Assembly (NCBI GenBank): GCA_002162695.1
Contig: MAAM01000006.1
Span: forward strand, 182,065-246,064
DNA: 64,000 bases
Direction of reading: 5' to 3'
Origin: Cycloclasticus sp. 46_120_T64
Lineage (GTDB): Bacteria; Pseudomonadota; Gammaproteobacteria; Methylococcales; Cycloclasticaceae
Of the stretch, positions 41,733 to 52,391 are shown piece by piece. Made by a program: the position numbers and the translations under genes. Position 1 is the stretch's first letter; each line of letters opens with the position of its first letter. Under the pieces are notes generated by a model, which saw only the letters and a program-made list of their open reading frames with translations, made no database searches and was not told the origin of the DNA.

Positions 41733-43061
41733 TTATTTTTCGAATAAGGCTATCGATTCGACGTGTGAGGTATGTGGGAACATATCCATCACCCCCGCTT
41801 TTTTCATCGTATACCCCAACTCATTCACCATAATCGCCGCATCACGCGCCAATGTTGATGGATTACATGAGATATACAGCACCTGCTTAGCGCCCCATTT
41901 AGGCAAGTAGTGCAATATTTCTTTAGCGCCTAAACGCGGTGGGTCGATCAATACTTTATTGTATTTTTTGTTAATCCAATCATCATTGGGCAATTCTTCC
42001 ATTAAGTTTGCCACATGAAAATCAACATTACTTAAACCGTTTTTATCGGCATTTTGCTTAGCGCGTTTAATTAGATCATCGCTACCTTCAACCCCGGTCA
42101 CTTGCCCGGCAACACGCGCCATGGGCAAGGTAAAATTACCCAAACCACAAAATAAATCCAACACCTTGTCGTCTTCATTAAGCTGTAACGTTTCCAACGC
42201 ACGGTTAATCATCTTACGGTTGATTTCTACGTTCACTTGCACAAAATCGCTCGGACCAAAATACAAGGTGACATCATTCGGTAATTGATAACTCAGTGCG
42301 GGCTTTTCACCACTGATCGGCTTAATGGTATCGGGGCCTTTCGACTGGCTATAAATATCCACCTCGGCAGACTGCTCAAAAGCTTTTAATAAGTCGAGGT
42401 CATTATCGCTCAAGGGCTCTAATATTCTAAACACAAGGGCGGTACGGTTATCGCAGATAGACACTTCAATTTGTGGGATTTTATCTTTAATCGATAACTC
42501 ACCAATCAACGCAGACAAGTCCATCAAACGCTTACCAACGGCGCTATGCAAGACCTCACATTGTTCAATTTCAGCGAGGTACGGGCTCGCTTTTTCCCTA
42601 AAGCCGACCAATACACGGCCTTTTTTCACCACGTCCTTAACCCCTAAACGGGCACGGTGGCGATAACCCCAATGCGGGCCGCTCAATGCTGGCCAGAGTT
42701 CAATATTTTCCAGCTTACCGATGCTCTTAAACTGATCGATAAGAATCGTCTGTTTCGCTAAAATTTGTTTCTCGGGGTCTAGATGCTGAAAACTACAGCC
42801 ACCACAAATATCGTAATGCTGGCAGCCCGGCTCCACTCGGTCGGCAGATGCTCTTAGTACCTCGGTGACGCGACCTTCAGCGAAGTCCTTCTTCTTTTTA
42901 CTGTATTCAAAAATGACCTCCTCACCCGGCAAGGCTCCGGCAATAAAAACTGCCTTATCATCTACGTGGGCAACCCCACGTCCATCGTGAGCCATCGACT
43001 CGATAGTCGCTTTCGCCGTTTCTGGGGGTAAATTCTTACGTCTGTTTCTACGTCTTGCCAT
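41733..43061 (-). CDS. rlmD: 23S rRNA (uracil-1939-C5)-methyltransferase
   Basis: 442 residues: a basic N-terminus MARRRNRRKNLPPETA, a TRAM domain (KATIESMAHDGRGVAHV), the Fe-S cysteines in GCQHYDICGGCSFQHL, a SAM-binding VLDLFCGLGNFTLPMA and the catalytic YISCNPSTLARD. It methylates U1939 of 23S rRNA. It is immediately followed by the L,D-transpeptidase gene. About 60 bp upstream the cysM gene ends. Confidence 0.95.
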   Translation of the reverse strand: MARRRNRRKNLPPETAKATIESMAHDGRGVAHVDDKAVFIAGALPGEEVIFEYSKKKKDFAEGRVTEVLRASADRVEPGCQHYDICGGCSFQHLDPEKQILAKQTILIDQFKSIGKLENIELWPALSGPHWGYRHRARLGVKDVVKKGRVLVGFREKASPYLAEIEQCEVLHSAVGKRLMDLSALIGELSIKDKIPQIEVSICDNRTALVFRILEPLSDNDLDLLKAFEQSAEVDIYSQSKGPDTIKPISGEKPALSYQLPNDVTLYFGPSDFVQVNVEINRKMINRALETLQLNEDDKVLDLFCGLGNFTLPMARVAGQVTGVEGSDDLIKRAKQNADKNGLSNVDFHVANLMEELPNDDWINKKYNKVLIDPPRLGAKEILHYLPKWGAKQVLYISCNPSTLARDAAIMVNELGYTMKKAGVMDMFPHTSHVESIALFEK

Positions 43062-43122
43062 GTCGCTGTTACAACCATTTTGTCAGTCATTAATGAGCGA
43101 TATTTTAAACGCTAAACGCTCA

Positions 43123-44010
43123 TTAGTCTGGAAAAATACCGGTCGATATATATCGATCGCCACGATCACAGATCACCACCACGATGGTGGCGTTTTCAAG
43201 CCGCTTTGCCAATTCCAAGGCGACATACGTTGCACCACCGGATGATACCCCACAAAAGATGCCTTCTTTTGCCGCCAACGCTCGTGTTGTGTCTTCTGCC
43301 TGTTGTTGATCAACCTGCAAAATCTCATCGACTCGAGAGCGGTCATAAATCTTTGGTAAGTACTCTTCAGGCCAACGACGGATACCAGGGATTTTTGACT
43401 CACCTTCCGGCTGCACCCCGATAATTTGAACCGCTGGATTTTGCTCTTTTAAAAACATCGAGGTCCCCATGATCGTGCCGGTGGTCCCCATCGAGCTGAC
43501 AAAATGAGTCACCTCGCCAGCCGTATCACGCCAAATCTCTGGCCCAGTCCCTCGGTAATGCGCCAACGGATTATCGGCATTAGCAAATTGATCCAACACC
43601 TTGCCCTCGCCATTAGCTTCCATTTCCCTAGATAGGTCTATCGCGGCTTCCATACTACCCGCCGCTGGGGTCAGGATAATTTCTGCACCATAGGCCTTCA
43701 TCGATGCCCTACGCTCGGCGCTCATATTATCGGGCATGATTAAAATCATTTTATAACCCTTGATCGCCGCCGCCATCGCCAAGGCAATACCGGTATTGCC
43801 GCTGGTGGCTTCGATCAAACAATCACCCGGTTTAATATCACCCCGTAATTCCGCTTGCTGGATCATGCTCAGGGCCGGGCGATCTTTCACTGAACCCGCT
43901 GGATTATCACCTTCTAACTTTAATAAAATAATATTGGAGGTGGTATTTAGCCGCTGTAAACGCACTAGCGGCGTATTACCAACAAAGTCTTCAATCGTAG
44001 GGTAGCTCAT
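43123..44010 (-). CDS. cysM: Cysteine synthase B
   Basis: About 295 residues from the ATG at 44010 (MSYPTIEDFVGNTPLVRLQR); 14 further residues upstream in frame lack family sequence. PLP-binding Lys lies in NPAGSVKDRPAL, the substrate loop is EATSGNTGIALAMAAAIKGY, and the late SSGGATYVAL holds the phosphate-side Ser. It makes cysteine (or S-sulfocysteine) from O-acetylserine. CysM rather than CysK is supported by the PTIEDFVGNTPLV start and short length. It is divergent from the first TonB receptor gene. Confidence 0.93.
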   Translation of the reverse strand: MSYPTIEDFVGNTPLVRLQRLNTTSNIILLKLEGDNPAGSVKDRPALSMIQQAELRGDIKPGDCLIEATSGNTGIALAMAAAIKGYKMILIMPDNMSAERRASMKAYGAEIILTPAAGSMEAAIDLSREMEANGEGKVLDQFANADNPLAHYRGTGPEIWRDTAGEVTHFVSSMGTTGTIMGTSMFLKEQNPAVQIIGVQPEGESKIPGIRRWPEEYLPKIYDRSRVDEILQVDQQQAEDTTRALAAKEGIFCGVSSGGATYVALELAKRLENATIVVVICDRGDRYISTGIFPD

Positions 44011-44169
44011 GTTTTCTCTGAAAAGATCAATAAGTGCGCCACCGTACCACACCTGCTCCGCTGGTTTTAATAGTTTTACGTTATGTGCTTAGGCCTAGCT
44101 GTCTATGTTAATATCTTTATAAAGAGCATAAAAAGCACCTCGTTAACACCTAAATAAAGACCTCCTAAG

Positions 44170-46191
44170 ATGGGCCCTCAACAACTATTTATTTATTTTC
44201 TAGCCAGCCTTGGCTTCCTCGGTTCATCACCATTACTCGCGCAGCATAATGGCGGCTTGGACTTTTTCCACGGCGAAGCCCCCGTTGTATTATCCGCCAC
44301 TCGGCTTGCTCAGCCACAAATTGAAGCACCGGCAACCATTAGCATCATTGATCGTCAAATGATTCAACTGTCTGGGGCTAAAAACATAGCCGATCTCTTT
44401 CGCCTAGTACCGGGCATGCATGTCGCGAATTTTCGAGGCAATCGAGCCATTGTCGGCTATCAGGGCCTTAGCAGTGAATACCCACAAGGCGTGCAAGTAC
44501 TGATTGATGGTAAGTCTGAATACAGTCCATTATTTGGCGGGGTTAACTGGGCCACCTTCCCCTTATTATTAGAGGATATTGAACGCATTGAAATAAGCCG
44601 TGGACCTAACGGTGCCACCTTTGGTTCTAATGCCTTCCAAAGTGTCATCAACATCATGACCAGTCATAGCCAGCAATTACAGGGCAGTCAGTTGAAGGTC
44701 ACCCTCGCGAATCGAGGTTATCAACGCACTATTTTCCGGCATGGTCTACACACTAAGCAGCTAGACCTTCGGCTTAGCATCAGCCAACTTGACGACGCGG
44801 GTTATGCCAATAATTTTGATGATACGCGACAAAGCATGCTCAACACTCGCGCCGATTATTCATTTAACCAACAAGACAGCCTGCAAATAAACCTTAATGC
44901 GCTCAATACACTAAGAGAAACCGCTAACCCAGACGACCCCAATGACCCGTTTGACCCTCGACGCCAGCAAGATGAAAGTTATTATTCAATAGCCACTAAA
45001 TGGCAGCGCAGCATCAATTCGGACGAACAATTATCGGCAAAACTGTCATATACCTTGATGAACAGCAAGGATGCCTATAGCCACGATGCCAGCACTTTAT
45101 TTGGTGCCGGCGCTAACTACTCCGCAGATCAAAGTGCTAGTTACGACCGTTGGGACTTTGAATTCGAACAACTCACAAAACCGAATGATAACACTCGAAT
45201 AGCTTGGGGCTTCGGCTTACGCAGTGACCGTGTTAGCTTACCGTTTTGGATCGGCGACGACAAAAAATACGATAACTCCTTACAACGTATATTTAGTAAT
45301 ATTGAGTGGCGAGTCAGTCAGCAGTTGATCATCAATACCGGTGCATTATGGGAACATACTCAACTATCCGGTCATCAGCTATCCCCCCGCTTCGCGCTCA
45401 ATTATTTAGTGAATGAGCAGCAAAGTTTACGACTGATTGTCTCACGCGCCTATAGAAGCCCCGTCCCCGTTGAGAATCAATTCAACGCCGAACACGTCAT
45501 TCAAACTGCTGCCGGTGAACTACGAATTCCCGTGCTGAATAATAACGGCAATACGATAAGACCCGAAACCATCAATTCCTTGGAGCTTGGTTACCACGGG
45601 CGGTATTGGCATAATGCTCTGGTGATTGACTTTAAGTTATTTCGCAATGAGTATGACCACCTCGTTGACACCGACATTAGCAGTCAAGCAGACGCTATCA
45701 CACTCAATGGCCTCACCGTCGCCCATAGCCCGTTGACACCCAACCCCGCGCCTTTTTTAAGCATTCATAATTGCCAGGCTGCCGATGTTAACGGGTTTGA
45801 ACTAGAGTTAAACTACCGGCCTAACCGGCAGGATTTATTGCATCTGACTTATAGTCACAACCACGTGACAGCCAACGCAGACCCTAGGCTGCAAGCGTCC
45901 ATCCCCACAGACACCTTCAGCCTGTTAGCCGCGCACCATTTTAATGCTGAGCAATGGGCCAGCGTCGCCTTTTATTACACCGGCAGTATGCGTTACAAAA
46001 ACTCGGGGCAACAGCAAGGTCCAACGAGGCGGTTGGACCTCAACGCTGGCACTAAACTAAAAGTGTCGCCGCGACAAAACATTGACATCAACCTTGGTTT
46101 ACAACTCGCCTTAGATACTAATACTGACTTTTTAACCGCGTTCAAACTTGATAACCGTGCCTTCGTTGAAGCCAGTGTTAACTTCAACTAA
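44170..46191 (+). CDS. TonB-dependent outer-membrane receptor (paralogue 1)
   Basis: 673 residues: a signal peptide (cleavage near LLAQ), a probable TonB box APVVLSATR, then a plug domain (ISIIDRQMIQLSGAKNIADLF, LVPGMHVANFRG, VLIDGKSEYSPLFGGV, IERIEISRGPNGATFGSNAF) and a 22-strand-type barrel ending RAFVEASVNF. The plug is almost the same as in the next gene, showing recent duplication. It imports an unknown ligand with ExbB/ExbD/TonB energy. Followed by its paralogue after 71 bp. Confidence 0.92.
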   Translation: MGPQQLFIYFLASLGFLGSSPLLAQHNGGLDFFHGEAPVVLSATRLAQPQIEAPATISIIDRQMIQLSGAKNIADLFRLVPGMHVANFRGNRAIVGYQGLSSEYPQGVQVLIDGKSEYSPLFGGVNWATFPLLLEDIERIEISRGPNGATFGSNAFQSVINIMTSHSQQLQGSQLKVTLANRGYQRTIFRHGLHTKQLDLRLSISQLDDAGYANNFDDTRQSMLNTRADYSFNQQDSLQINLNALNTLRETANPDDPNDPFDPRRQQDESYYSIATKWQRSINSDEQLSAKLSYTLMNSKDAYSHDASTLFGAGANYSADQSASYDRWDFEFEQLTKPNDNTRIAWGFGLRSDRVSLPFWIGDDKKYDNSLQRIFSNIEWRVSQQLIINTGALWEHTQLSGHQLSPRFALNYLVNEQQSLRLIVSRAYRSPVPVENQFNAEHVIQTAAGELRIPVLNNNGNTIRPETINSLELGYHGRYWHNALVIDFKLFRNEYDHLVDTDISSQADAITLNGLTVAHSPLTPNPAPFLSIHNCQAADVNGFELELNYRPNRQDLLHLTYSHNHVTANADPRLQASIPTDTFSLLAAHHFNAEQWASVAFYYTGSMRYKNSGQQQGPTRRLDLNAGTKLKVSPRQNIDINLGLQLALDTNTDFLTAFKLDNRAFVEASVNFN

Positions 46192-46262
46192 AGATTAATC
46201 ATCGTACCTATTTATTTGTCCGCTATAATCCCCCAAAAATACCAGGCCCCTACTCTGCACCA

Positions 46263-48311
46263 ATGAAAACACTCTCGCTATCCACACTCGCTGCGCTTTT
46301 TTGCTCAGCAACGCTGGCATCACCCACCGTTATAGCTAAGGATAGCGCCGACTTGTCTTTTTTTGAGCAAGAAATACCCATTGTATTATCCGCGACCCGC
46401 TTAGCTCAGCCACAAAATGAAGCGCCCGCCACGGTTAGTATTATTGACCGTGAACTCATTAAACTATCGGGTGCAAAAAACATCCCTGAAATTTTTCGTC
46501 TAGTGCCTGGCATGCACGTGGGTTATTTCCGCGGAAATAATCCCGTTGTCGCCTACCAAGGGCTGTCCAGCGAATACCCGCAAGGGGTACAGGTGCTAAT
46601 CGATGGCCGTTCAGTTTACAGCCCCCTGTTTGGCGGGGTTGACTGGGCCAACCTACCCTTACTTATCGAGGATATCGAACGCATCGAAATTATTCGCGGT
46701 GCTAACGGCTCCTCTTTTGGCTCTAACGCCTTTCAAAGTGTTATCAATATCAGCACCAGCCACTCGGTGCAATCAAACGGCTTGCAAGTTAAGTCGATAC
46801 TGGGTGAGCACGGCTATCAACGCAGTGTACTCAGGGCCGGAGGCGGATCTGAGGACATGAACTTCCGCATCGGTGCCTCGCATATTGATGACTCGGGTTA
46901 TCGTAATAATCATGATGACAATCGACAAGACACCATCAATGCACGTATTGACTATCAGCTCAGCGCCAACGATTCACTACAGCTCAACATCGGCGCCGTT
47001 AACAGCCTAAGACAAACTAAAAACCCTAAGCAAACCCCTGACCCGTTTGACCCCGCTCGCCAAGTCGAAAGCTCTAATTACTCTGCACATATAAAATGGG
47101 AAAAGCAAACAGCGGACCGGCAGCAATTTATCACCCAGTTTTCATACACCCAACACCAGCAAACTGACAAGGTCAGCTCGGTATTTGACTCAGGTATTCC
47201 AGGAGTTGGTGATGTCAGCAGCCAGCTCGATTACAGTCAATATTACGAGCGTTATGACCTTGAATTTGAACACCAGTTTGAAGCCTCAGAGGCGCTACGC
47301 ATATCATGGGGAATAGGCAATAGAAACGATCGTGTGTATATCCCTCTATGGCTCGGTAGCGATAAAACCTTTGATAACTCACTGCAACGCATCTTTAGTA
47401 ATATTGAGTGGCGGCCCTTTCGCCAAGTCGTGGTCAATCTAGGTGCGCTTTGGGAGCAAAACCTACTAAGTGGCGATGGCTTATCTCCTCGAATAGCCGT
47501 TAATTATTTGCCCTCCAAACAGCATAGTTTCAGACTATCAGCCTCACACTCCACTCGTGTGCCAGTACTCACTGAAGAGCACTTTCACGTCGACCTGGCG
47601 TTGGAGTCGGTATCGGTACCCGGTTTACTATTTACCCAGCCTGTAGGCAGAAGCACCCATGAGCTTGAAGCCGAAAAGGTGGATTCATTTGAGCTCGGTT
47701 ATCACGGCTTATTTATCAACAACGCACTAAGCCTCGACCTCAAATTATTCAGAAATGAATACGATCAACTAATCGACACCCGTGATATAGACACCCCCCT
47801 TTCTATTAGCCTTGATGGTAAGCCCCTAGCTCCCTTTACGATTGATGCCGGCAATAAAATAAAGTTATTTGACAACCTTTATTACGCCAACATAAACGGC
47901 TATGAATTTGAACTAAACTACCGCCCAAACAAAAACAATTTAGTGCATATTGGTTATGCTTACAATCACGTCAATGTAGGTGGTTTAAACAATAAGGATA
48001 TAAGGAATATCCAACGCTCTGTCCCCAAAGACATCTTTAATATGCTATTGGCACACACCTTTAATAATGGGCTTTGGCTCAGTACAGCCTTATATTATAC
48101 CGGCAGCATGGAGTATTTAGACTCCGGCAACCCGCAAGGCCCGATGCGCCGCTTAGACCTGAATATTGGTCAAGCTATTAAACTCGCTGCTGGACAAAAC
48201 CTAGACCTATCGTTCAGCCTGCAATTAGCACTCGATAAAAACAAGGATTTCCTAAACGAGTTCCACCTCGATAACCGCGCCTTTATTGAAGCGAACTACA
48301 GCTTCGAATAA
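46263..48311 (+). CDS. TonB-dependent outer-membrane receptor (paralogue 2)
   Basis: 682 residues with a signal peptide, TonB box IPIVLSATR, and a plug (VSIIDRELIKLSGAKNIPEIF, LVPGMHVGYFRGN, VLIDGRSVYSPLFGGV) nearly colinear with the preceding receptor. The barrel diverges more, mainly in extracellular loops, for example GLLFTQPVGRSTHELEAEKV here, so ligand range may differ. It ends NRAFIEANYSFE. It is probably cotranscribed with paralogue 1 and lies 175 bp before the binding-protein/kinase pair. Confidence 0.92.
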   Translation: MKTLSLSTLAALFCSATLASPTVIAKDSADLSFFEQEIPIVLSATRLAQPQNEAPATVSIIDRELIKLSGAKNIPEIFRLVPGMHVGYFRGNNPVVAYQGLSSEYPQGVQVLIDGRSVYSPLFGGVDWANLPLLIEDIERIEIIRGANGSSFGSNAFQSVINISTSHSVQSNGLQVKSILGEHGYQRSVLRAGGGSEDMNFRIGASHIDDSGYRNNHDDNRQDTINARIDYQLSANDSLQLNIGAVNSLRQTKNPKQTPDPFDPARQVESSNYSAHIKWEKQTADRQQFITQFSYTQHQQTDKVSSVFDSGIPGVGDVSSQLDYSQYYERYDLEFEHQFEASEALRISWGIGNRNDRVYIPLWLGSDKTFDNSLQRIFSNIEWRPFRQVVVNLGALWEQNLLSGDGLSPRIAVNYLPSKQHSFRLSASHSTRVPVLTEEHFHVDLALESVSVPGLLFTQPVGRSTHELEAEKVDSFELGYHGLFINNALSLDLKLFRNEYDQLIDTRDIDTPLSISLDGKPLAPFTIDAGNKIKLFDNLYYANINGYEFELNYRPNKNNLVHIGYAYNHVNVGGLNNKDIRNIQRSVPKDIFNMLLAHTFNNGLWLSTALYYTGSMEYLDSGNPQGPMRRLDLNIGQAIKLAAGQNLDLSFSLQLALDKNKDFLNEFHLDNRAFIEANYSFE

Positions 48312-48486
48312 CAAATAACTAATACATGGACCGTATCATTACAACAAACAAGCACGGCAGAAGCACTCTCTTTTCGAGCGTGTCAAAACCGTCTAATCCG
48401 CGCTCAGCCCCCCTGCTGAGCAGTGATCGACTTACCTGCTTATTTCTCTGCCGGTACACTGGAGTCGCTAGCCGTGAGCACGCCGC

Positions 48487-49455
48487 ATGAGAATATTAGC
48501 TAATATGCTTTTAAATAGCTTACGTCGCCCCCTCACGCGTATATTCTTCGCCATTATACTCTTGTGCCCCTTTAGCACCTTTGCGCTCAATATTAGCCTT
48601 ATTTATAACCCTGAGAGCTCTTACCAGACTAGCTTTCTACACGCCTTATCTGAGCATTTAACGAATAGCGACAATATTCAGCTTAAGACAATCCCCAGTA
48701 CTGAACTGTCTTCGGTTTCATTATCACCCCCGTCTATTGATGCGCTGGTCAACCTTGATGGCAACAGTATTGGCAAGGTTCTGACACTGGGCTTACAAAG
48801 ACCGACCTTCCACGCGATGACCACACTGGCTAACGCTCGCCGTTACGCCGCCTGTCTGCCTAATTGCCTCAACAGTTTGGCGCAGCACCGTTTCTTTGTG
48901 CTCGACCAACCAGCCGCCCGCCAGCTCGATTTAATTCAGTTGATTAGCCCCGCATTTAACAATATCGGCGTCATCGTCACCGATTACTCCTTACCCCACT
49001 TTACCGGCTTAAAAAAACTAGCGGTAATAAGGCAGCAAACCGTTATTCAACATTTAACCAGCTCAGCCAGCCTTCGTTACAAAATCAACGATATCGCAAA
49101 AACATCCGACATCATCTTAGCCGTCGCCGACACACGTATTTATAACGCCTCATCATTACCACAAATACTGCTAACCAGTTACCGCCATAAAACCCCCGTC
49201 ATTGGTTTTTCTAAGGGTTTCATCAAGGCGGGCGCCATCGCGGGAACAGTTAGTAACTTACAACAACTCACCCAGCAACTTAGTGAACGCTTATTAGTAC
49301 ACGACTCGGCCATAGAATATGAGGATGGCAACCTAGTCTACCCAAAATACTTCGATGTACTGACTAACCGTCATGTCGCCAAAAGTTTAAACCTCCACTT
49401 TCCCAGTGACGATGAACTAAAAAAGCAGCTGCTGTCCCATGAAGGCTTACAATAA
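48487..49455 (+). CDS. Periplasmic solute-binding-like protein (ABC_sub_bind family)
   Basis: 322 residues: an N-terminal hydrophobic export signal (FFAIILLCPFSTFALN), then ISLIYNPESSYQTSFLHAL, FVLDQPAARQLDLIQLISP, NIGVIVTDYSLP and VIGFSKGFIKAGAIAGTVSNLQQLTQQL. This is the pattern of the ABC_sub_bind (pfam04392) group of orphan binding proteins. No ABC permease or ATPase is near. Its 3' end overlaps the kinase gene by 17 nt, so it more likely feeds the kinase sensor than a transporter. Confidence 0.83.
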   Translation: MRILANMLLNSLRRPLTRIFFAIILLCPFSTFALNISLIYNPESSYQTSFLHALSEHLTNSDNIQLKTIPSTELSSVSLSPPSIDALVNLDGNSIGKVLTLGLQRPTFHAMTTLANARRYAACLPNCLNSLAQHRFFVLDQPAARQLDLIQLISPAFNNIGVIVTDYSLPHFTGLKKLAVIRQQTVIQHLTSSASLRYKINDIAKTSDIILAVADTRIYNASSLPQILLTSYRHKTPVIGFSKGFIKAGAIAGTVSNLQQLTQQLSERLLVHDSAIEYEDGNLVYPKYFDVLTNRHVAKSLNLHFPSDDELKKQLLSHEGLQ

Positions 49456-51790
49456 ACTTCCCGTACAAAGCAAACTACTGCTGCTCAGCGTATTACCTGC
49501 CGCAGTAGTGGCCATTACCCTAGCGATCTACTTCACCAGCACTCGTTTAAATGACATGTATGACTTATTGCATAAAACGAATCAAAATTTAGCCAGCTCT
49601 ATCGCCGAAGCCAGTATCAACAGTGTATTCACAGGCAATATCGAAGCCTTGGACACCATCATCAGTTCTTATGAAAATGAAACCGACCTCATTTCCATCA
49701 GCATCACCGATGCATTTGGTAGTCTGTTATCAACAAACCATACGGCTAATAACAACAGTGCCGAAGCGTCAACGGCCACTACAAAAATAGTGCAGGCGAT
49801 TCAATTAAAAAGAATTTCTACAGACGAAGGCTTTGATAGCTTACTTGTGGGAAGCCCTCCGCAAACGAGCGATATCATTGGTTATGTATCCATCGTCATT
49901 TCCTACCAATCTATCCAGCAACGACAATACGATATCTTATTGCATAGTTTTTACATCACCGTGGTATTGTTGATTATCATCGGTATCATTGCCCGCTATA
50001 TCAGCAATTCCTTAGGCAAACCTATTCTCGACTTAGCCGGTAATGTAAAAAACATCACCGATGGTGAGTACCACTTAGCAGACATTGACTACCATAGCCC
50101 CGATGAGATATCCACGCTCATCTCAGGTGTCCAGCAGATGGCCTTAGTTCTTGAGCAACACCAAGATATATCCGCAAAAAAAGTCAGTATTGCCACCCAA
50201 GAATTACGCCTGCAAAACGACAAGCTTTTTGATGCACAAGAAGAGCTCATTAAAGCCGCCCGAGAAAAATCTAGGTTCGTTTCGCATATCAGCCATGAAA
50301 TCCGCACCCCACTCAATGGCATCATTGGTTTTCTTGAAATCATCAAAAAAACGCCACTCGATGAGGCACAAACGAAGCTTGTTAACTCTTCATACCTTTC
50401 GGCTAAAAATTTACACGTTATCATCAATGAAGTGCTCGATTTAGCACAATTAGAAGCCGGTAAGGTGAAGATTAACCGCAGCGACTTTAACCTTAAAGAA
50501 TCGATTGAGGATACCTTAGCTACCTTGTCTGTATTGGCTGAAAGCAATGGTGTCACCGTGCATTACCAACACGACCTAAATGCCGCTGAATTCATCAACC
50601 AAGACCGCGTCAAATTTGGCCAGATATTGCTCAACCTCGTGGGTAATGCAATAAAATTTAGCCCAAATTCTATCGTCAAGGTTAGCTTAAAAGCCGATAA
50701 ACCGAAGAAGAACCATATTGAATTATGTATTCAGGATCAAGGTATCGGTATTAGTAATAAAAATATCAATAAATTATTCCGTTCATTCTCTCAGCTAGAT
50801 GATGCCACTAGCGTACAGGGAACCGGTTTAGGTCTCGCCATCACAAAACGCATACTCGATGCGCTGAACGGTAGTATTAGCGTACAAAGTACGCTCGGCA
50901 CTGGCAGTCTATTTTGTTTTTCACTGCCATTTAGCGACGCTAAAACAGCTGTATCTCCTAAGTATTCTGTCGACACCTGCGACCCCAGCTACCCTGACCT
51001 ATCCTCAATAAAAATATTAGTCGCCGATGATAATGAAATTAATCGTTTATTATTAACTCATTTATTAGAAGAGCAACACGCTCAAGTCAGCTGCGCCAAC
51101 GATGGTCAGCAAGCTGCCGACTTGGCAACCAGCCAAGACTTTGACTTAATGCTGCTGGACCTCAGAATGCCGTTCAAAATGGGTAATGAAACGCTGCACG
51201 AAATTCGTCGCGATAGCCAGCACCGAAATTACACCACACCAGCTATTGCCATAACCGCCCATATAACAACCGGTGAAGTACGCGCTAACCACATCAGCGC
51301 ATTCGACGGCTACCTAACCAAGCCGATTGATCATAGTGAATTTTTCACTCTGCTTGAACAATTACTCGGTGAGCACGATAGTAAATCCACGCCCTTTTTA
51401 GCCGTAGGCGAATATCAGCAAAAAACAAACCCCAATAAGGTCTTTGACTACGAACGTGCAAAGAAAAACATGAACGCCGACAGTCAACTGATGAATATTA
51501 TTATGGCTAAGTTCTTTAGCGAATTACCACAGCTACAGGCTGCCGTTTCAGCTGACATAAAACAGGAAGATTTATTAAGTGCCGCTGAAATCGTACACAA
51601 GATTCAAGGTTCCTGTGCCTATTGCGCGGCAAACGCGCTACAAACCGCAGCCAAGCAACTTGAAGTTAGTTTACGCGATAAACACAACGACTTACTGCAA
51701 GAGAATTACCAACAATTTGAAGCCGAAATGGAACGTTTACTGGCTGCCAAACCCCAAATAATTCGTGCCTTAGAAACGCCCGCCGAATAA
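49439..51790 (+). CDS. Hybrid histidine kinase (HAMP-HisKA-HATPase-REC-HPt)
   Basis: 783 residues. Two membrane spans (about 13-33 and 175-197) enclose a periplasmic sensor; HAMP follows, then HisKA with the phospho-His in FVSHISHEIRTPLNGIIGF (near 285). The ATPase has LLNLVGNAIKF, QGIGIS and GTGLGLAITK. A receiver begins ILVADDNEINRLL (near 522) with the Asp in MLLDLRMP and Lys in YLTKPID, and an HPt has IVHKIQGSCAYCA (near 718). This BarA-like layout needs a separate output regulator, none of which is nearby. It overlaps the binding-protein gene. Confidence 0.93.
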   Translation: MKAYNKLPVQSKLLLLSVLPAAVVAITLAIYFTSTRLNDMYDLLHKTNQNLASSIAEASINSVFTGNIEALDTIISSYENETDLISISITDAFGSLLSTNHTANNNSAEASTATTKIVQAIQLKRISTDEGFDSLLVGSPPQTSDIIGYVSIVISYQSIQQRQYDILLHSFYITVVLLIIIGIIARYISNSLGKPILDLAGNVKNITDGEYHLADIDYHSPDEISTLISGVQQMALVLEQHQDISAKKVSIATQELRLQNDKLFDAQEELIKAAREKSRFVSHISHEIRTPLNGIIGFLEIIKKTPLDEAQTKLVNSSYLSAKNLHVIINEVLDLAQLEAGKVKINRSDFNLKESIEDTLATLSVLAESNGVTVHYQHDLNAAEFINQDRVKFGQILLNLVGNAIKFSPNSIVKVSLKADKPKKNHIELCIQDQGIGISNKNINKLFRSFSQLDDATSVQGTGLGLAITKRILDALNGSISVQSTLGTGSLFCFSLPFSDAKTAVSPKYSVDTCDPSYPDLSSIKILVADDNEINRLLLTHLLEEQHAQVSCANDGQQAADLATSQDFDLMLLDLRMPFKMGNETLHEIRRDSQHRNYTTPAIAITAHITTGEVRANHISAFDGYLTKPIDHSEFFTLLEQLLGEHDSKSTPFLAVGEYQQKTNPNKVFDYERAKKNMNADSQLMNIIMAKFFSELPQLQAAVSADIKQEDLLSAAEIVHKIQGSCAYCAANALQTAAKQLEVSLRDKHNDLLQENYQQFEAEMERLLAAKPQIIRALETPAE

Positions 51791-51832: not shown

Positions 51833-52267
51833 TCAGTCACTAGACAGCTCTTGTTTCCAGCCGATCACCGCCGTTATCACTCCGAACAACATATAAAATA
51901 TAATTTCGGCAATATTCAAGTTAAAAAACACCGTCACCGGCGTCATCCCCGACAAGCCATACACCCCCATGATAATACAAAATGGCCCAATAATTTGATT
52001 CATCAAACTCGCGTAGGAACCATCAAAGAAAATCACCGAGGCCAGCAAACACATCCCTGTAATAATATGCCCTGTACACTGTAATTGAGTGAGGGTAAAA
52101 AAGATAAACGCCTCGCCAGTAAATGGGATACCTACCACCCCAATGAGGATCAACAAAAAACCCACATACTTCGCATACTCAATATTCAGGTTATGGTGAT
52201 CCGTCCATAATTTGTGCACCCCATCATCCACATGAAGGTGCGCGTGCCGCTCAATAGTTGTACCCAT
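51833..52267 (-). CDS. Small four-helix membrane protein of unknown function
   Basis: 144 residues from the ATG at 52267, which has AGGAGG seven bases upstream; 10 more in-frame residues upstream are unlikely to be used. Four hydrophobic segments: YVGFLLILIGVVGIPF, HIITGMCLLASVIFF, QIIGPFCIIMGVYGLSG and AEIIFYMLFGVITAVIGW. The His-rich N-terminus (ERHAHLHVDDGVHKLWTDHH) could bind metal. It lies downstream of the PQQ dehydrogenase, behind a terminator. I do not recognise the family. Confidence 0.75.
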   Translation of the reverse strand: MGTTIERHAHLHVDDGVHKLWTDHHNLNIEYAKYVGFLLILIGVVGIPFTGEAFIFFTLTQLQCTGHIITGMCLLASVIFFDGSYASLMNQIIGPFCIIMGVYGLSGMTPVTVFFNLNIAEIIFYMLFGVITAVIGWKQELSSD

Positions 52268-52354
52268 ATAGATTCCTCCTAAATACTTCGAAGCCACCGT
52301 AAGACAATCACCTCCTAATGAAGTTCCCTACAGTCAGCAACTACAGCAAGCATA

Positions 52355-52391
52355 AAAAAGGGCCGAGTAGCAAAGCTACTCGGCCCTTTTA
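52355..52391 (-). terminator. Strong rho-independent terminator after the PQQ dehydrogenase
   Basis: Perfect 16-bp stem (52356-52371 with 52375-52390) with a 3-nt loop; on the minus strand it ends in a T-run. It separates the dehydrogenase from the small membrane protein gene. Confidence 0.92.

Follow-up and report, generated by a model that had tools for sequence, protein, structure and literature searches.

LuxP-LuxQ and TorT-TorS each pair a periplasmic binding protein with a hybrid kinase, and to our knowledge LuxPQ is encoded without a TonB receptor. E. coli BarA (BarA/UvrY system) senses protonated acetate or formate with its own periplasmic domain, according to the accessible part of PMC8639471. 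For GacS (GacS/GacA system), the ligand is called unknown in the excerpts available of a 2020 review (PMC7695008) and a 2025 paper (PMC12148439), and the excerpt of a 2026 paper (PMC13390462) speaks of no consensus. The available parts of the GacS review (PMC7695008) and of the BarA paper (PMC8639471) do not mention TonB, and that of the GacS signalling paper (PMC12148439) does so only in a comparison with BtuB. Among titles and the beginnings of abstracts in the open-access library searched, we found no report of a TonB receptor or a binding protein encoded with gacS or barA. Here, we investigated four genes in a stretch of 64,000 nucleotides (nt) of Cycloclasticus sp. 46_120_T64 (contig MAAM01000006.1; the whole stretch is called the window, and its features are given in window positions). 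They encode two TonB-dependent receptors (TBDR1 and TBDR2), a periplasmic binding protein (SBP) and a hybrid kinase (HK). The explanation we favour, with moderate confidence, is a trans-envelope sensory operon that serves as the input module of a BarA/GacS-type master kinase, and the gene row, present in this apparently oil-degrading marine bacterium and in many relatives, suggests a testable route by which such kinases get their signal.

As in LuxP-LuxQ and TorT-TorS, a binding protein is encoded with a hybrid kinase (torT was seen beside torS in the torS stretch). The difference lies in the TonB receptor, which was absent from the torS stretch that we looked at, and in TorS itself, which falls outside the kinase branch described below. 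The likeness to BarA/UvrY and GacS/GacA comprises the same locus (rlmD/cysM side), a broadly similar domain order and, in the reduced one of two kinase trees only, a common branch; the system in the window differs from them by its co-encoded receptor and binding protein and by an HK that has no segment between HATPase and REC. From this arrangement we infer import, ligand binding, SBP-Cache contact, the direction of signalling and the output as follows. The TonB receptors would import a ligand that is scarce or bulky; in the periplasm, the orphan SBP would capture this ligand and dock on the kinase encoded in the overlapping frame, at its Cache sensor domain. The kinase would then run a His-Asp-His relay to a GacA/UvrY-type regulator and, in most relatives, on to Csr/Rsm control.

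Four genes at the barA/gacS locus

The four reading frames were recovered at the positions originally predicted, all on the plus strand and with the predicted 17-nt overlap between SBP and HK. TBDR1 (44170..46191, 673 amino acids, aa) and its paralogue TBDR2 (46263..48311, 682 aa) each carry a Pfam Plug and barrel. Their barrels, originally described as diverged, share 46% identity (233/502); 'near-identical' was a little strong for plugs at 79% identity (103/130). The SBP gene (48487..49455) follows TBDR2 after a gap of 175 nt and runs into the HK gene (49439..51790). A remnant of a third receptor in this gap was considered and rejected, the matches being at chance level (E 0.49 or worse).

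By sequence and predicted fold, the SBP is assigned to the ABC_sub_bind/TrpX binding proteins. The ABC_sub_bind call of the original prediction was reproduced at 25.7 bits, just under the Pfam cut-off of 25.9 (53.6 bits for a relative in the class, L120), and the score on NF041285 (TrpX; E 4.5e-8) was far below the family cut-off. Profile matches in the PDB were 3lkv, 6hni and 3lft. The predicted model (pLDDT 66, under 50 in the conserved stretch 192-252) gave a Foldseek E of 1.7e-7 to 6hni and matched SBP folds, with CD0873 and the TrpX-like 3lft and 3lkv at the top and LuxP at rank 31. The start of the protein resembles a signal peptide by eye. No transporter genes adjoin the SBP gene: as had been claimed, no ABC permease or ATPase was found, here among six neighbour genes scanned with Pfam, the rest of the genome not having been searched for one. 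A CxxxC motif (C123, C127) and H109 are invariant in the 14 Cycloclasticus SBPs, though not across the wider family; as a metal or redox site of the SBP family the motif was rejected because the two cysteine positions are filled in only 15 and 14 of 73 aligned SBPs. A plasmid search with the SBP returned two partial Massilia matches.

HK was found to contain HisKA, HATPase, REC and Hpt above the Pfam cut-offs, preceded by sCache_4 (20.4 bits, cut-off 22.1) and HAMP (20.1 bits, cut-off 25), both just under. In the predicted model of its N-terminus (pLDDT 73), a Cache-type domain is surrounded by long helices, and the best matches of this sensor model include the periplasmic domain of a LapD orthologue (Z 12.3) and CitA (Z 11.7). 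The original prediction of a BarA-like hybrid kinase had missed both the locus and the apparent grouping with BarA. The site is the barA/gacS locus: E. coli K-12 has rlmD and barA in divergent orientation, and in the window HK is divergent from cysM and rlmD (41733-44052). The adjacent marker, cysM (43123..44052, minus strand), scored 525.2 bits on NF008735 (cut-off 413), and the second, rlmD (41733..43061, minus strand), 566.8 bits on NF009639 (cut-off 458). Many SBP-linked kinases (about 900 aa) sit at the place corresponding to E. coli barA; at one locus (L140), genes for holo-ACP synthase and PdxJ come after the SBP-linked kinase.

Recurrence of the gene order and of the SBP-sensor pairing

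The genus sample comprised 18 family members, all of one genus, with the window's assembly as G000. The SBP was present in 14 of these 18 genomes, in single copy except for G012 (two contigs). All 14 genus loci fetched, from 13 other genomes, showed an SBP/HK overlap of 14, 17 or 23 nt. They hold one to three receptors, located upstream in 13 cases; at the 14th locus, the contig begins within the SBP gene. In 11 of the 14, cysM is divergent; the other three, on short contigs, hold no cysM open reading frame (ORF). Three genomes that have no SBP (G003, G005, G013) also had no receptor match at E<=1e-30, and the fourth, G004, contained a receptor fragment only. At L028-L031, L033 and L039, another receptor type or a receptor fragment shares 11 nt with the SBP gene; this is not present before the SBP gene of the window.

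Outside the genus, a profile of the genus SBPs was searched against 369 Gammaproteobacteria genomes of 271 genera and matched in 70 genomes (two of the genus) and 55 genera. Sixty of the 71 non-genus SBP places were fetched, together with three loci from a search of the order. Genes were labeled with profiles of genus proteins (E<1e-8) and counted as beside the SBP gene up to 400 nt away for sensors and 700 nt for receptors. Among the 60 class loci, a sensor gene (kinase or GGDEF protein) stood beside the SBP gene in 52, a TonB receptor in 46 and both in 42, and cysM or rlmD lay within the fetched stretch in 32. Of the 53 SBP/sensor junctions in order and class, 40 overlap by 1-23 nt, most commonly by 4 nt (30/53). 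The four-gene arrangement is real, and it is not a chance one: the same order and overlap were seen across the genus, at SBP identities of 37-52%, and in the class. The original prediction had made its uptake-and-sensing layout depend on homologous SBP/sensor pairs being accompanied by TonB receptors, and mostly they are (43 of the 53 sensor-linked loci in order and class, 13 of 14 in the genus); that part stood, and what it had overlooked was the barA/gacS identity of the locus.

In the order search, the SBP was found in 17 of 301 genomes, 14 of them of the genus, so the module is rare in its own order outside Cycloclasticus. One of the non-genus loci (L118) contains cysM, two receptors, SBP and HK. 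Two others (L116, L117) contain an SBP homologue without receptor or sensor; that of L116 adjoins MinC- and ParA/MinD-like genes, and the neighbours at L117 are similar in size.

At four loci (L119, L123, L132, L135), a protein with a GGDEF motif replaces the kinase after the SBP. A TonB receptor was seen at three of these four SBP and GGDEF-protein loci, of which L119:3173-8603 and L132:3650-9161 are examples. The two GGDEF proteins scanned have the order sCache_4-HAMP-PAS-GGDEF-EAL, and sCache_4 is likewise present in the L120 kinase. So, where examined, the type of sensor domain that accompanies the SBP is constant and the output varies. A lost basic ligand pocket proved not usable as a mark of SBP-dependent sensors: sensor columns that are at least half basic numbered 0 in 46 SBP-linked kinases, 2 in 13 Cycloclasticus kinases, 6 in four GGDEF-type proteins and 1 in 14 BarA kinases without SBP.

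Pairwise distances were compared over 46 loci (L119, L123 and L132 dropped), with values given for all loci and then for non-genus loci. Receptor and SBP distances correlated strongly, with r 0.77 and 0.73, or 0.50 and 0.55 with the kinase core removed. For SBP and sensor domain, the values with the kinase core removed were modest (0.31 and 0.30). This co-variation fits a module inherited as one and is no proof of SBP-sensor contact.

The same loci bear on positional hitch-hiking, in which promoter and locus are shared without any talk between SBP and kinase, and the SBP hands its ligand to an inner-membrane transporter elsewhere. Such a role would suit a superfamily that includes the transporter subunit TrpX, the setting at L116, where MinC- and ParA/MinD-like genes neighbour the SBP homologue, and the four of 60 class loci where receptor and SBP occur without an adjacent sensor (L133, L151, L159, L170; the L159 stretch stops 242 nt beyond the SBP). 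It would also suit SBP distances that track the kinase core (0.61 and 0.41, sensor removed) more closely than the sensor. Nevertheless, we regard hitch-hiking as unlikely, since the SBP has a sensor next to it at 52 of the 60 class loci, mostly in overlapping frames, the link is kept at 22 of the 53 sensor-linked loci in whose stretch no cysM or rlmD was seen, and the output was swapped to GGDEF while the SBP was kept.

A second alternative to the sensory operon is repression of the YfiR-YfiN type, in which the SBP would hold the kinase off until freed by ligand or by an outer-membrane receptor that senses and does not transport. The available part of PMC4655355 describes YfiR as a repressor that YfiB sequesters. 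The modules of the YfiBNR and YfiR/HmsC kind resemble the four genes in joining a periplasmic protein to a sensor in the membrane and a partner in the outer membrane, and a parallel cluster with a TonB receptor exists in the window's own genome. On contig C4 (L042:6093-11532), a TonB receptor, a YfiR/HmsC-like protein and a CHASE8 hybrid kinase are encoded in a row, the last two overlapping by 7 nt. However, the periplasmic protein there is of the YfiR family and the sensor domain is CHASE8, as opposed to the SBP, of a different Pfam family, and sCache_4 here. As the window's receptors are moreover full plug and barrel proteins, we consider this explanation quite improbable.

Kinase relationships and output regulator

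A search of the same 369 genomes with the BarA model NF008318 at E<=1e-170 gave 63 matches in 62 genomes. An SBP gene is directly upstream in 30 of these 63, and 25 of the 30 have a receptor as well; one of the 30 (G314) was counted by its ORF call, the BarA model having matched later domains only. In a kinase tree of 80 rows, E. coli BarA falls among SBP-linked kinases, several more SBP-linked kinases branch at the base without resolution, and the label 'SBP-linked' needs 9 changes, at least 3 of which are forced by starred branches. A reduced tree of 55 rows was obtained by dropping 29 of the 80 rows and adding E. coli ArcB, TorS, RcsC and EvgS. In this tree the Cycloclasticus HKs belong to a 46-row branch with E. 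coli BarA and SBP-linked kinases (SH-aLRT 98). Outside this branch are the four added kinases, four further hybrid kinases encoded in the window's genome, the C4 kinase included, and the SBP-linked kinase L169. The C4 kinase has the best BarA-model score in this genome (465 bits).

The expected partner of HK is GacA/UvrY, because HK sits at the barA/gacS locus and groups with BarA in the reduced tree; the original prediction had left the output regulator unnamed, as unknown. CsrA was found in the window's genome and in 15 of the 18 genus genomes. With a Cycloclasticus GacA query, 13 of the 18 were matched at 70-100% identity, in addition to a fragment in G004 and a distant match in G015. A query with E. 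coli UvrY matched in 21 of 22 chosen genomes, and the sole miss was the window's own. A rule that SBP and GacA strictly co-occur within the genus was tried and fails: GacA stands without SBP in G005 and G013 and SBP without GacA in G000 and G012, and for G015 there is only the distant match. In two Cycloclasticus genomes (L224:5990-8845, L225:4421-7298), gacA is divergent from a gene of about 600 codons and is not beside uvrC as in E. coli.

Several results weigh against the sensory operon as an input module of BarA/GacS-type kinases, in addition to the closer agreement of the SBP with the kinase core given above. The SBP-sensor value in the full set is hardly above that for REC (0.29; 0.10 in non-genus loci). 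Fourteen of the 60 class loci have no receptor in the stretch and eight no sensor, and only some of these are at contig ends. No SBP is directly upstream in 33 of the 63 strong BarA matches, E. coli BarA has none, and among the four matches above the BarA cut-off the two SBP-linked ones (G619, G521) have no receptor in the stretch. The window's HK scored 399 bits on NF008318 at a cut-off of 890, a narrow cut-off reached by matches in 4 of the 369 class genomes, and lacks the stretch between HATPase and REC (BarA-model positions 533-665). The 80-row tree puts the Cycloclasticus HKs just outside the branch holding E. coli BarA, and in the reduced tree the branch with all 47 candidate rows has a support of 75 only. 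No GacA/UvrY turned up in the 15 contigs of the window's assembly (estimated completeness 99.97%), nor in G003 and G012; in the window's assembly its absence is possibly a true loss or an assembly gap. On its score and its differing places in the two trees, we call the kinase BarA/GacS-like at the BarA locus, and not BarA.

We only tentatively extend the sensory-operon reading to ancestry: a TonB-imported ligand read by a dedicated binding protein may have been the ancestral BarA/GacS input in much of Gammaproteobacteria, with partner-less kinases such as E. coli BarA arising via later loss. If so, receptor and SBP would supply the input, which would help to explain why the GacS signal has been elusive in tests of the kinase alone. 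The arrangement would also question the assumption that BarA/GacS-type kinases sense alone. Receptor and SBP genes directly before such kinases in many gammaproteobacterial families would provide two baits for the ligand that can be purified, and would make a genetic test simple.

Receptors, candidate ligand and neighbouring genes

Cycloclasticus is known for hydrocarbon degradation, and this apparent lifestyle of the host favours a further explanation, namely a sensor for hydrocarbons (alkane or aromatic) specific to oil degraders. The named family nearest to both receptors, TOL_0244 (NF053590), points the same way: in the accessible part of PMC6304351, TOL_0244 of Thalassolituus is sevenfold up on n-C28 and similar to OmpS of Alcanivorax. 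In contrast to these alkane-associated TonB receptors, TBDR1 and TBDR2 score 198.7 and 196.4 bits, less than a third of the cut-off of 645; the ligand is not transferable. Four receptors scanned in class genomes score alike or somewhat higher (219-247 bits), and the SBP is spread over 55 of the 271 genera sampled. We therefore hold a hydrocarbon-specific sensor to be very unlikely.

A promoter scan gave values below those of shuffled sequences, and a terminator scan gave values within one standard deviation of them. Downstream of HK lie one small gene and a gene for a PQQ-dependent dehydrogenase, and between these two a terminator-like hairpin with 16 perfect pairs was seen on the minus strand (52356-52390). 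The small gene (51833-52297) encodes a hydrophobic-looking protein and adjoins HK in 7 of the 14 genus loci.

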